Part shown: positions 1 to 58,999 of the stretch, one piece after another
How the letters are laid out: each line of letters starts with the position of its first letter
How positions within the stretch are numbered: position 1 is the first letter of the stretch
DNA from: Methylicorpusculum oleiharenae
GTDB taxonomy: Bacteria > Pseudomonadota > Gammaproteobacteria > Methylococcales > Methylomonadaceae
Length of the DNA stretch: 64,000 nucleotides
Direction: 5' to 3'
NCBI RefSeq assembly: GCF_009828925.2
Contig: NZ_WUTY02000001.1
Location: 2,324,492-2,388,491, forward strand
Notes under the pieces: generated by a model
The model's input: only the letters and a program-made list of their open reading frames with translations
Database searches by the model: none
What the model was told of the DNA's origin: nothing
Translations under genes and position numbers: made by a program

Positions 1-1029
1 TTTAATAAACAATGCTGGAATCAATGGCCTGATGAATACAAAAATAAGAACTCAAAAGCCATAATTAGTGCCAGAAGAAGGCTGAATTCTAAAATTGAAA
101 CGATAAAATTTGAGCAATTCGTTTTCTTTAGCCAGTGGAATGCGTTAAGAGATTATGCCTCGCAGCGAGGCGTTTTGTTATTCGGCGATATTCCCATTTT
201 TGTTTCTTATGACAGTGCTGACGTGTGGGTACATCCCGAAGTATTCAAGCTGGATGACGAAGGATGTATGTTAGTCGTTGCCGGCGTACCACCCGATTAT
301 TTTTCTGAAACCGGTCAGCGTTGGGGAAATCCTCATTATGATTGGGATTATTTGCAGGAAACAGGGTTTCGATGGTGGATTGAGCGCATGCAAACCCAAA
401 TCGAAATGTTCGATATTGTCCGTATTGATCATTTTCGAGGTTTGGAAGCGGCTTGGGAGATTCCCAGTCATGAGCCTACCGCCGTAAATGGTAATTGGGT
501 AAAAGCGCCGGGAAAAGAGTTACTGGAAGCGATTTATAATGCTTTTGGACCTGTTGCGCTGGTTGCAGAAGATTTGGGGATCATAACCGAGGAAGTTGAA
601 GAGTTGCGCGATCACTTCGGTCTGCCCGGAATGAAAATCCTTCAATTCGCCTTCGGTGGAAATCATGACAATCCCTATTTGCCGGGAAATCTGGAAAAAA
701 ACTCGGTGGTCTATACAGGAACACATGATAATGACACCACGCTGGGTTGGTATGAACAAATCAGTGATTGGGAAAAAGATTACATTCATGAGTACCTAGG
801 CAGTCCCACATCAACGATGCCTTTTACATTGATTCAGGCTGCGCTTTCTTGCGTGTCTAATTTAGCTGTCATTCCCATGCAGGATATACTCGAGCTGGGC
901 ACAGAGCACCGCATGAATACACCGGGAACCACCGAGGGTAATTGGCACTGGCGTTTCGAGTGGGGACAATTATCGCAAGATAAAGTGAATCGCCTTGCTC
1001 ACGCTATCCATTTATTCGGCCGTTCTTAA
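1..1029 (+). CDS. malQ: 4-alpha-glucanotransferase (amylomaltase), 5'-truncated by window edge
   Basis: Cytoplasmic GH77 enzyme that moves alpha-1,4-glucan segments between maltodextrins; in methanotrophs it belongs to glycogen turnover. The frame is open from base 1, so only the last 342 residues are present. The three catalytic regions are visible: the nucleophile Asp in RIDHFRG, the acid/base Glu in ALVAEDLG, and the third Asp in TGTHDNDTT. The C-terminal WHWRFEW segment and the stop fit a complete 3' end. An internal TTG near 175 can look like a start but lies inside the conserved GVLLFGDIPIFV motif, so it is not one. Nothing downstream on the same strand is linked to it; an intergenic repeat follows. 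Confidence 0.95.
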   Translation, partial: FNKQCWNQWPDEYKNKNSKAIISARRRLNSKIETIKFEQFVFFSQWNALRDYASQRGVLLFGDIPIFVSYDSADVWVHPEVFKLDDEGCMLVVAGVPPDYFSETGQRWGNPHYDWDYLQETGFRWWIERMQTQIEMFDIVRIDHFRGLEAAWEIPSHEPTAVNGNWVKAPGKELLEAIYNAFGPVALVAEDLGIITEEVEELRDHFGLPGMKILQFAFGGNHDNPYLPGNLEKNSVVYTGTHDNDTTLGWYEQISDWEKDYIHEYLGSPTSTMPFTLIQAALSCVSNLAVIPMQDILELGTEHRMNTPGTTEGNWHWRFEWGQLSQDKVNRLAHAIHLFGRS

Positions 1030-53477: not shown

Positions 53478-53814
53478 TTTATCCTAATGGAAAAACAGAT
53501 GCAGAAAATCACTATAAATGAGTGGGTTGCGGTTATCCGTAATACAGTTCATCAAACTGTCATAAATGCCTGGTTGCAAAGCTTTCGGCAAAAACCAAAC
53601 CGCTAAAGAAATAGTCAGTCAGCGGCATATATGCCCAAACCGGATCGAATAGGCCAGGAAAGTAAAACTGGTATTTTCTTAAATCAGGTAATCTGCGCCC
53701 TGAGCATACCCAAAATTTGAAAATGTGGGGCCTTGAAAGAGCCGTTTATGAACCTAAGACACTTTTTCAAGCTTGCAATATGCCTGATTATCCTTTAGTT
53801 TAAAGCTATAACCG

Positions 53815-53905
53815 TAAGGCTAGGGGTGCTCCAAGATTTGTCTTGTTGCTGAGAAAAACCCTTTGAACCTGACTCCGGCTAATACCGGCGTAGGGAAGCC
53901 ATCTT
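53815..53905 (+). promoter_or_regulatory. TPP riboswitch (THI element)
   Basis: Conserved pieces in order: AGGGGTGCTCC, GCTGAGA, CCCTTTGAACCTGACTCCGG, TAATACCGGCGTAGGGAAG. These match the thiamine pyrophosphate riboswitch (GGGGUGC, CUGAGA, GAACCUGAuCuGG, UAAUACCAGCGuAGGGAA). It lies about 40 bp upstream of thiC, so it likely controls thiC initiation when TPP binds; the ribosome site AGGAGA is just beyond. Confidence 0.97.
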
Positions 53906-53935
53906 CCCAGCGCCCTGATTTATCAAATGATTTAG

Positions 53936-55944: not shown

Positions 55945-55972
55945 AAAAACAGCGGTCACCGCTTTTTTTTTC
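55945..55972 (+). terminator. Rho-independent terminator downstream of thiC
   Basis: AGCGG (55951-55955), TCA loop, CCGCT (55959-55963), flanked by an A run before and TTTTTTTT after; the A and T runs extend the stem. About 130 bp after the thiC stop. Confidence 0.75.
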
Positions 55973-56167
55973 ATTATTCGCAGATAGTTGTTATCTCAAA
56001 TAGCCCTCAAAGCAGAGCTTTCTGGCTGCTTCGCCAGCCTTGATTCAAAGCAAGCCAGCTTAACTCTATTGTCATTAAATGCCTGATGTGTTTATTTAAC
56101 CGAAGGGCAGGTTAATTTATATGAAATCTTCGATTAAATTTAAATAGCCTATGGAAATGACTATACT

Positions 56168-58999
56168 TTGATTCTGTGTGAACGGTTTATCCTTCGCGAT
56201 GAGCGGCGTTACGGTCTTAATAAATTGGAAAAAACTTCCATTGTGCGCGTACTTACTTTAATACTATCAATCGCTTTTTCATCCCTATCATTAGCTGCGC
56301 TGACTGATACCCAAGAAACGCGAATCCAAACCGTATCAAGAATTAAACTTACCCCTGACGAACTCGTTTGGTTAAGCCGGCACAAAACTGTTCGTGTGGG
56401 TTTTGATAGCGATTTTCCTCCCTACAGTTTTGTTGGAGAGAGCGGCCAAATTGAAGGCGTTGCTATAGACATCATCAAGCTCATTAGCGAGCGTTTGTCT
56501 ATCAACATCGAAGTGGTTCCTTATAATACCTGGAATGAACTTTACGATGCGGCGGCAGCTAAAAACATAGATGCTGTTGCGACGATGGTCGATCGTCCGG
56601 AAAGACGAGAATGGTTTGATTTCACTCAGCCTTATTTGTCCAAATCGCTGGTCATTATTGCCAGAAAAGATATTAAAGGCATCAACAGCCGGGCTGATGT
56701 CGCAGGTAAGACGGTTGCTCTGATCAGAAATTATCAGTATGTGGATCGAGTTTTAGAAGAGTTTCCGTCGCTAACCCCTTTTTTTGTCGATAGCATTACT
56801 GAGGGACTGGAGTCAGTTGATAGCGGTAAAGCCGAAGCCTTTATCGGGTTTTCCGGTGTCGGGTATTTCCTCTCTCAGCGTGGATTATTTCCCAACCTCA
56901 AAGTGGTGACTTTTTACGATCACAACAGTGCAAATGAGAGTATCGCGGTCAGAAAAGATTGGCCGGTGCTTGCGGAAATTTTTCGTAAAGGCCTGGATTC
57001 CCTGTCAGTAGATGAAAAACAGGCCATCTTCGATAAATGGGTGCCTCAGGCTGAACCGATAGTTGATTTTGCTTTTATTGCCAAGCTATTGGGCGCTATG
57101 TTGATCGTCCTGATCTTGCTGATTTCATGGCTTATTCAGATTAGAAGGCAAAATAAAAAAATCGAGCTATCCAATCAGGAAGCCCTTTTAGCCAACAAAA
57201 AATTACAAGAATTTCAAATGGAATTGGAAGCACTGGTCGCTCAGAGGACATCGGAGCTGCGAGTCAGCGAGCAAAAATTTCGCAGTCTGGTGGAAAATCT
57301 CCGGGATGAATATTTTTTTTACAGGCAAGATCTCGAGGGAAAATTTACTTATGTAAGTCCCTCGGTAACTTCAATTTTGGGCTTTAATCAAGACGAGTTC
57401 AAAGCCGATTTTAAAGATTACCTGTCTGATAATCCGGTCAATCAAGAAATTGAAGAAAAGCTGGCGCAGTGTATTCAAGGTGATTTGCAACCTCTTTACC
57501 AGATTGAAATCTATCATGCCAATGGTGATTTACACTGGCTTGAGCTTCTTAATACACCGGTTTATAACGAAAAAGGCGATTGTATCGGTGTTGATACCAT
57601 TGCCCATGATGTTACCGCCAGAAGAGAAGCTCAGGAAATTCTTACTTCGTTGTCTTACTACGATGAATTAACCGGTTTAGCCAATCGCCGCCTGTTTTCC
57701 GATCGGCTACAGCAAACGATAAATTTGGCCCATAGAAATAAATGGTCAGTTTCTCTGTTTTATCTGGATCTTGATCGGTTCAAATCGGTAAATGACAGTT
57801 ACGGACATTCTGCAGGTGATGAAGTACTTAAAGAAACAGCAAAACGAATGATTTCAGTGCTGCGCGATTCGGATGTTGCCGCGCGCATGGGGGGTGACGA
57901 ATTTCTGTTATTGTTGCCCGAAACAGATGCTGATGCCGCGATTAGAGTCGTTGAAAAACTGCTTAAGATTCTTTTGCTGCCCTACTATGTTGACGAACAT
58001 ATTCTGACCTTGGGCGCCAGTATCGGCGTTGCCGTTTATCCGGAGCATACAAACGATGGGGAAACATTGATCAATTATGCCGATACGGCCATGTATTCTG
58101 CCAAAGAGAAGAAACTTGGCTTCGCTTTTTATACCAAAGAGATGCAGGAGTTACAGGTTAGCCAGACGCAGCTTGCCGAAGATTTGGTAAAAGCTGTACG
58201 GTTTAGTTTGTTAAATGAAAAAAATGAGTTTTCTGTCGGATCAGTGAAATGCCCAACGTCTCAATTTTCTTTGTATTATCAGACCTATCATTCACTTTCA
58301 AACAATCAAATATTGGGCTATGAAGCCCTCATTCGCTGGAACCATCCTGTGTTGGGTGCCATAGGGCCCATTGACTTTTTGCCTTTGGCCGAGCAAAAAG
58401 ATTATATAGGAAGTATCACTCAATGGATGTTCAACCAGGTCTGTGCGCAGCTTTTGATTTGGAATTCTGAAAAGATAAGACCACCAAAAATGAGTGTTAA
58501 TCTGGCTTTGAGCGAGATTAATTCGCCGAATTGGGCAGGCAAAATACTGACTCAGCTTGCGCAGTTAAATGTGAACCCCGCATGGTTTACTATCGATTTA
58601 AAAGAATCCGCTTTTTTGAATGATAACAGTGCTTTAATGTCTGAAATATCTTTATTGAAAGAAGCCGGGGTCACTGTCTGCATAGATGACTTTGGGGGGA
58701 AGACATTTAGCGATTTGAAGTCTCTCGCACAACTGCCGGTTGATTTGATAAAGCTGGACCGGAGATTATTAAGGAACATTCCCGGTGATACAGAAAGTGT
58801 TAAATTTATTCAGGACGTCATTCGAACCGCTCTGCCTGTTGGCAAGGCTGTTGTCGCAAAAGGTATAGAGACACAAGAACAGTTGGATACACTTCGAAAA
58901 TACGGTTGCGACTGCGGGCAAGGTTTTTTATTTTGTAAGCCATTGCCTGGTAACGAAGTCCAGGCGTTCACAAAATCTTTACAATGGTTTTTAAATTAA
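56168..58999 (+). CDS. SBP-PAS-GGDEF-EAL cyclic-di-GMP protein with degenerate EAL
   Basis: A 943-residue inner-membrane signalling protein. Order: short hydrophobic N-terminus, periplasmic amino-acid-type solute-binding domain (about 70-295; VGFDSDFPPYSFV, IDAVATMVDRPERREWFDFT), TM about 302-324, PAS (about 370-488), GGDEF (GGDEF at 575-579) with an RXXD inhibition site (R566-D569), EAL domain (about 690-940). EAL catalytic residues are mostly kept (E719, N778, E813, D840, D841, K862, Q918), but the Glu of AEGVET is Lys898 (VAKGIET). So it should be a cyclase with a possibly inactive phosphodiesterase domain. First in-frame start is TTG 56168; another TTG at 56225; both lack clear ribosome sites. 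Confidence 0.9.
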   Translation: MILCERFILRDERRYGLNKLEKTSIVRVLTLILSIAFSSLSLAALTDTQETRIQTVSRIKLTPDELVWLSRHKTVRVGFDSDFPPYSFVGESGQIEGVAIDIIKLISERLSINIEVVPYNTWNELYDAAAAKNIDAVATMVDRPERREWFDFTQPYLSKSLVIIARKDIKGINSRADVAGKTVALIRNYQYVDRVLEEFPSLTPFFVDSITEGLESVDSGKAEAFIGFSGVGYFLSQRGLFPNLKVVTFYDHNSANESIAVRKDWPVLAEIFRKGLDSLSVDEKQAIFDKWVPQAEPIVDFAFIAKLLGAMLIVLILLISWLIQIRRQNKKIELSNQEALLANKKLQEFQMELEALVAQRTSELRVSEQKFRSLVENLRDEYFFYRQDLEGKFTYVSPSVTSILGFNQDEFKADFKDYLSDNPVNQEIEEKLAQCIQGDLQPLYQIEIYHANGDLHWLELLNTPVYNEKGDCIGVDTIAHDVTARREAQEILTSLSYYDELTGLANRRLFSDRLQQTINLAHRNKWSVSLFYLDLDRFKSVNDSYGHSAGDEVLKETAKRMISVLRDSDVAARMGGDEFLLLLPETDADAAIRVVEKLLKILLLPYYVDEHILTLGASIGVAVYPEHTNDGETLINYADTAMYSAKEKKLGFAFYTKEMQELQVSQTQLAEDLVKAVRFSLLNEKNEFSVGSVKCPTSQFSLYYQTYHSLSNNQILGYEALIRWNHPVLGAIGPIDFLPLAEQKDYIGSITQWMFNQVCAQLLIWNSEKIRPPKMSVNLALSEINSPNWAGKILTQLAQLNVNPAWFTIDLKESAFLNDNSALMSEISLLKEAGVTVCIDDFGGKTFSDLKSLAQLPVDLIKLDRRLLRNIPGDTESVKFIQDVIRTALPVGKAVVAKGIETQEQLDTLRKYGCDCGQGFLFCKPLPGNEVQAFTKSLQWFLN

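Follow-up and report, generated by a model that had tools for sequence, protein, structure and literature searches.

A putative solute-sensing diguanylate cyclase with a degenerate EAL domain in Methylicorpusculum oleiharenae, and its relatives with intact or absent EAL domains

Proteins with both GGDEF and EAL domains are easily called bifunctional on domain content alone. The genome of Methylicorpusculum oleiharenae encodes such a protein in the window analyzed here (the whole stretch of 64,000 nucleotides from contig NZ_WUTY02000001.1, positions 2,324,492 to 2,388,491), and its EAL domain has Lys in place of the catalytic Glu of the AEGVET motif. Does this protein make and also hydrolyze c-di-GMP, or only make it? 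We predict a diguanylate cyclase that responds to a solute and whose EAL domain is probably dead as a phosphodiesterase, serving instead to bind c-di-GMP or as a structural part.

The protein appears to be an inner-membrane sensor (Table 1). An SBP_bac_3 domain lies in the periplasm, and a single membrane helix leads to PAS, an intact GGDEF domain and a degenerate EAL domain. All four Pfam domains score above their cut-offs. For the EAL domain (PF00563) the curated cut-off is 31.3 bits, the first 10 profile positions are missing from the match, and 47 distinct PDB sequences match at E <= 1e-5. The GGDEF motif and the upstream RxxD site expected of a diguanylate cyclase are both present (RDSDVAARMGGDEF), and they are intact in all three genomes of the genus, in agreement with the earlier note on this locus. 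AlphaFold models of three sequences had a mean pLDDT of 57.5, too poor to show the EAL pocket.

Table 1. Features of the sensor gene and its 5' flank (window positions; residue numbers count from 56168)
Feature	Position	Strand	Remarks
Terminator-like hairpin, 3' of thiC	55951..55971	+	8 such sites in region, shuffle mean 4.6
Promoter-like TTTAAA-17-TATACT	56139-56167		region holds no more such sites than shuffles
Sensor protein ORF	56168-58999	+	943 aa, frame open
SBP_bac_3-TM-PAS-GGDEF-EAL gene, likelier extent	56225..58999	+	start-site comparison with congeners
SBP_bac_3, periplasmic solute-binding domain, residues 75-293	56390..57046	+	Pfam, 99.7 bits
Membrane helix, residues ~301-325			judged by eye
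PAS domain, residues 388-487	57329..57628	+	Pfam PAS_4, 40 bits
GGDEF domain, residues 497-649	57656..58114	+	Pfam
RxxD site RDSD	57863-57874	+	
GGDEF motif	57890-57904	+	
EAL domain, degenerate, residues 698-925	58259..58942	+	Pfam, 206 bits
ExLxR kept, E719-A-L-I-R723	58322..58336	+	
LELTES-type motif changed at ExT, Glu to Asp810 and Thr to Lys812	58595..58603	+	
Loop 6 DFGGKTFSD, residues 841-849, replaces DFGTGYSS	58688..58714	+	one inserted residue
Lys898 (AAA) for AEGVET Glu	58859-58861	+	

The gene may be somewhat shorter than first described. The TTG at 56168, taken as the start in the earlier note, is probably too early, since this codon is TCG in both congeners and lies just 3' of a conserved -10-like TATACT. 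TTG 56225 and GTG 56243 are common to all three genomes of the genus, and one of these is the likelier translation start. The sensor gene is probably transcribed alone because a terminator-like hairpin follows the upstream gene, which we take to be thiC. A TPP riboswitch is found 5' of thiC (53812-53913). In both congeners (L039 and L040/L086) the sensor gene is adjoined by genes for a phosphate permease, thiC, ORF 59821, an MFS gene and GH3. None of these five neighbors was found beside the gene in 30 stretches from other genera (mostly with short flanks, 7-15 kb in L087-L090), so a functional tie to thiC is without support. The proteins of the two nearest named relatives, MAGs assigned to Methylicorpusculum sp. 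and Methylomicrobium sp., are 93% and 95% identical to the window protein.

Lys898 is real. It is present in all three genomes of the genus that were searched, encoded by AAA, AAG and AAA, and the use of two different codons makes an assembly or read error unlikely. The earlier note had all the other active-site residues kept, which does not hold when the domain is read against MorA and other solved EAL domains, the other EAL domains of the genome and 78 EAL domains of the order: Asp810, Lys812 and the loop 6 sequence are also altered. We take Asp810 and Lys812 to be equivalent to E265 and T267 of RocR, and the RocR metal ligands to be E175, N233, E265, D295 and D296; four of these five ligands are kept in the window protein and the fifth is Asp810. 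D841 and K862 are kept besides the metal ligands E719, N778 and D840. Two further features of an active phosphodiesterase, the catalytic Glu of EGVE and a loop 6 of the form DFG(T/A)GYSS, are replaced by Lys898 and DFGGKTFSD.

Published work gives weight to these sites. The two Glu of the ExxE motif are E352 and E355 in RocR numbering (PMC12943098). In TBD1265, the change E703A, at the same Glu as the Lys898 site, abolishes phosphodiesterase activity, loop 6 is reported to be essential, and the second Glu (equivalent to E901) is reported as dispensable for catalysis (PMC12943098). A non-conserved EGVE base is described as predicting EAL inactivity in another study (PMC12900916). The EAL domain of the window protein is altered at the catalytic Glu, at the Glu of ExTES and in loop 6, and with these changes it would not hydrolyze c-di-GMP. 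The ExLxR motif is kept, and it is named as the c-di-GMP-binding motif of inactive EAL domains (PMC10333796).

With the sensor-PAS part as query, a search of 311 genomes from the order gave matches at E <= 1e-40 in 64. From these, 42 ORFs were selected and aligned: 18 have an EAL domain, 23 have none, and G185, which has no GGDEF domain either, is the outgroup. The matches outside the alignment are weak ones, stand-alone SBP genes, short or broken pieces and another four g18 genomes. Of the 41 aligned family members, five have a canonical EAL domain (G004, G186, G182, G239 and G235), 13 a degenerate one and 23 none. Degenerate domains belong to g1, the genus of the window protein (three), g10 (five), g17 (one), g18 (three) and a second copy, G235b (one). 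The genus g3 is mixed, with a canonical EAL in G004 and none in G272, G275 and the fragment G273. In the three aligned g18 rows (L079, L080 and L081) GGDEF and EAL are both degenerate, so this receptor may be without any enzyme activity.

Of the EAL-less members, 21 of 23 stop right behind GGDEF; this suggests a cyclase that functions with no EAL domain. The tandem copies G113b and G024b have lost GGDEF along with EAL, and G144 and G273 are missing their 5' part at a contig end. A tblastn search of the 23 loci with five EAL domains, covering 0.65-1.6 kb downstream of each gene, found no split-off EAL gene or EAL remnant on the coding strand; the one locus with a match, L067 (73-768, +), has it on the other strand from the family member, and it was taken as a separate gene. 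In G113 (L073) and G024 (L074) the tandem second receptor lies beside a normal one, and an unrelated tail replaces its GGDEF part. The M. oleiharenae genome also encodes a paralogue of the sensor domain (L110, 502-1560, minus strand; G000:C1:991247-991978) that is 48% identical and has no output domain, only an apparent membrane helix and then a short tail. It resembles a receptor that has lost its cyclase, and matches with open frames of similar length are found in both congeners.

The 78 other EAL domains used for comparison are a non-random sample. They include 59 from 60 stretches chosen among matches to the window protein (L123 gave no EAL) and 19 from 26 other EAL places in the M. oleiharenae genome. 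Left out were L008, which has a canonical EAL (AEGVET, DFGSGFSS), the fragments L104, L105 and L107, and L106, L108 and L109, which gave no match to the EAL query. In the comparison within the genome, 24 of 27 EAL places gave a row, the window protein included, and four were fragments or mis-cut. Of the 78, 73 have Glu where the window protein has Lys898 and two have Lys, and Thr, Val and Asp each occur once; the Lys of the window protein is thus an observation above chance. The G-x-G of loop 6 is kept in 77 of 78 (the exception is DFGVEFSSF). Lys812 is weak evidence for a lesion because Thr varies in six of the 78 and is Asn in G182, which is otherwise canonical.

Other EAL domains with changed catalytic sites occur in the genome and in the order. 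A second GGDEF-EAL protein of M. oleiharenae (L102, G000:C1:4441348-4442043, minus strand) has Lys at the catalytic Glu (IAKFVEN), keeps the ten other active-site residues that were checked and has a near-normal loop 6 (DFGSGFSSF), a genuine case of all residues but one kept. In a different family of the order, L114 (G057) has the Glu-to-Lys change (IAKGVET) with a near-normal loop 6 (DFGSGYSAL). Two more degenerate domains of the same genome were found in L101 (IAVNVDS, with Lys for the QG Gln) and L103 (IVDDVES, with Gln for the EAL Glu), in the order as listed.

Thirty columns are at least 93% conserved in the 78 EAL domains. The window protein departs from them in six, and its genus in seven if one column that is mixed within the genus is counted. 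Sixteen of the 30 are kept in all four degenerate lineages (g1, g10, g17 and g18), including Q705, E719, L721, R723, N778, D840, D864, E901 and Q918. At each of the remaining 14, one row or more has a change; these columns are E742, E810, E813 (in one g10 row only), D841, F842, G844, G846, S848, K862, E898 and four more. T812 falls below the 93% bar and so outside the 30 columns; it is altered in 12 of 12 rows of the four lineages. Across all 18 EAL-bearing family members Q705, E719, R723, N778, D840, D864, E901 and Q918 are invariant, and E810, T812, D841, K862, E898 and loop 6 vary. Besides ExLxR, some of the other kept residues are taken to touch the ligand. From the kept ligand residues it is plausible that the EAL domain retains c-di-GMP binding, and the pattern fits a domain in which hydrolysis has been lost and binding kept, though the metal ligands are kept too.

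The 18 EAL domains of the family group together in a single clade (100/99) that excludes 18 other EAL domains from the genome. Within it, the 12 degenerate domains of g1, g10, g17 and g18 form a clade with support 95/96. G235b groups with the canonical domains; its EAL decayed separately. The loop-6 motif is missing in all four genera, and the EGVE Glu site is Glu in g10 (5/5), Val in g17 and Lys in g1 (3/3) and g18 (3/3). The Lys is shared by the three searched genomes of the genus and not by the orthologues at large, part of which have Glu; of the pair of findings that the earlier note would together have held against it, Glu orthologues do exist in other genera, and there is no sign of an error at the codon. 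Because all four genera are without the loop-6 motif while g10 keeps the Glu, loop 6 was most likely lost before Lys898 arose in an already impaired domain (by parsimony on the EAL tree). The motif would already have been gone in the ancestor of the four genera. Parsimony would have Lys arise once or twice in the degenerate clade, perhaps independently in g1 and g18.

The sensor-PAS data are compatible with more than one history. In the free tree g18 is placed among EAL-less genera and three changes of EAL presence are needed. A clade of the EAL-less members outside g3, without g18, is not rejected (p-AU 0.206) and would mean two changes; a g1+g10+g17 clade is not rejected either (p-AU 0.485). 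If gain is excluded, we infer a minimum of two losses of the EAL, one within g3 and another in the large group that has none, on a sensor tree with one distant row as its root. Gain instead of loss was set aside, as the single family clade fits one old acquisition followed by losses, without proving it.

The dN/dS ratios are simple Nei-Gojobori averages over pairs, and for g16 and g18 most domains show saturation of dS. Within g1, where each of three genomes has an open frame of 951 codons, dN/dS is 0.080 for EAL, 0.041 for GGDEF and 0.054 for SBP; in g10 the values are 0.149, 0.056 and 0.056, and in a canonical pair (g20) 0.067, 0.075 and 0.099. On the g1 value, the degenerate EAL is under purifying selection, less constrained than the neighboring domains yet far from free. 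Stem lengths were taken on one fixed topology in which some forks have support of 44, 59, 61 and 75. The EAL stem exceeds the SBP+PAS stem in g1 (0.99 vs 0.44, 2.3x), g10 (0.56 vs 0.28, 2.0x) and g17 (0.57 vs 0.31, 1.8x). The two are equal in g18 (0.54 vs 0.54) and G235b (0.43 vs 0.42, ratio 1.0 in both), so the EAL did not evolve faster in every degenerate lineage. The branch ratio in canonical genera is 0.6-1.4, and the stem of 1.4 between the degenerate and canonical groups may belong to either side.

Degenerate EAL domains are already well described, and the window protein adds one more example. The receptor LapD presumably has a degenerate GGDEF domain, and we assume that RmcA has the same domain order as the window protein, in which the SBP_bac_3 sensor lies ahead of GGDEF-EAL. 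As in the receptors FimX and LapD, the EAL fold is kept and catalytic residues are lost (PMC3527489, PMC3032553), and in LapD the loop-6 consensus is likewise not conserved (PMC3032553). The window protein also keeps ExLxR, as expected of an EAL receptor of this kind. The GGDEF domain of FimX is degenerate (PMC3527489), whereas that of the window protein is intact and joined to an SBP_bac_3 sensor. A Komagataeibacter xylinus cyclase has an EAL domain inactive through a degenerate loop six, as proposed here; the likeness concerns the cyclase-EAL part (PMC10333796), and the window protein differs in that the ExTES Glu and catalytic Glu are altered too. RmcA of Pseudomonas aeruginosa shares the SBP_bac_3, PAS, GGDEF and EAL domain types and is a precedent for SBP_bac_3 as a c-di-GMP sensor. 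RmcA carries four PAS domains, senses L-arginine and works chiefly as a phosphodiesterase (PMC8846402), in contrast to the one PAS domain and degenerate EAL of the window protein, whose residues do not fit phosphodiesterase as the main output. CdgH of Vibrio cholerae is also a cyclase with periplasmic substrate-binding sensor domains, two in tandem where the window protein has one, a likeness in the sensors (PMC5431781). The genus name Methylicorpusculum does not occur in the best five of 2,381 papers matched on diguanylate, c-di-GMP or GGDEF, and the protein is not thereby shown to be unreported.

We predict that binding of a periplasmic ligand would control c-di-GMP synthesis. Purifying selection on the EAL domain would most likely reflect a retained ability to bind c-di-GMP, or a role in stabilizing the dimer, through which it may tune the cyclase. 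Other lineages would have dropped the EAL. The earlier proposal of a pure cyclase with a non-hydrolyzing EAL and a periplasmic sensor is supported by the sequence, with Lys898 as one lesion of several and not the main reason. Loss of the EAL in 23 relatives counts against our reading, as EAL-based regulation is then not needed in general. The same 23 of 41 could mean that the EAL is a non-functional relic en route to deletion in a protein that is simply a diguanylate cyclase, and the mixed state of g3, the long stems in g1, g10 and g17 and the fast linker before the EAL in g10 (dN/dS 0.43, though 0.044 in g1) agree with this. A free relic would be expected to approach a dN/dS of 1, far above the value in g1, and would not be expected to keep the ligand residues in all four degenerate lineages; we consider a relic unlikely.

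Residual or conditional phosphodiesterase activity despite Asp810 and Lys898 is less probable still. With E719, N778, D840, D841, K862 and Q918 in place weak hydrolysis is possible, which is a point against our main reading, and the degenerate EAL of FimX is reported to have activity that is very low yet measurable (PMC3527489). Against it, three sites are altered at once, and TBD1265 is dead with a change at one of them and is reported to need another, loop 6 (PMC12943098). Degenerate EAL domains of the YdiV or CsrD type, which contact proteins or RNA in roles that do not involve c-di-GMP, are known (PMC10333796); the window protein keeps ExLxR, the YYQ Gln, E901 and Q918, all of which makes such a role very improbable. 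We give equally little credence to the idea that Lys898 replaces the catalytic metal, with the Lys amino group linking the carboxylates to the phosphate of c-di-GMP in a metal-independent receptor wired to its own cyclase. If that were true, the family would hold a natural series of three stages, in which a phosphodiesterase became a product sensor and was then deleted.

For a predicted cyclase with a probably non-hydrolyzing EAL, the annotation should be putative diguanylate cyclase, not phosphodiesterase. The unusual feature, and the part worth keeping, is the series of intact, degenerate and absent EAL domains within one receptor family: one order of bacteria has members with a canonical EAL, members with the catalysis sites gone and the ligand sites kept, and members with no EAL. 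This makes the family convenient for testing whether dead EAL domains persist as product sensors or simply await loss.
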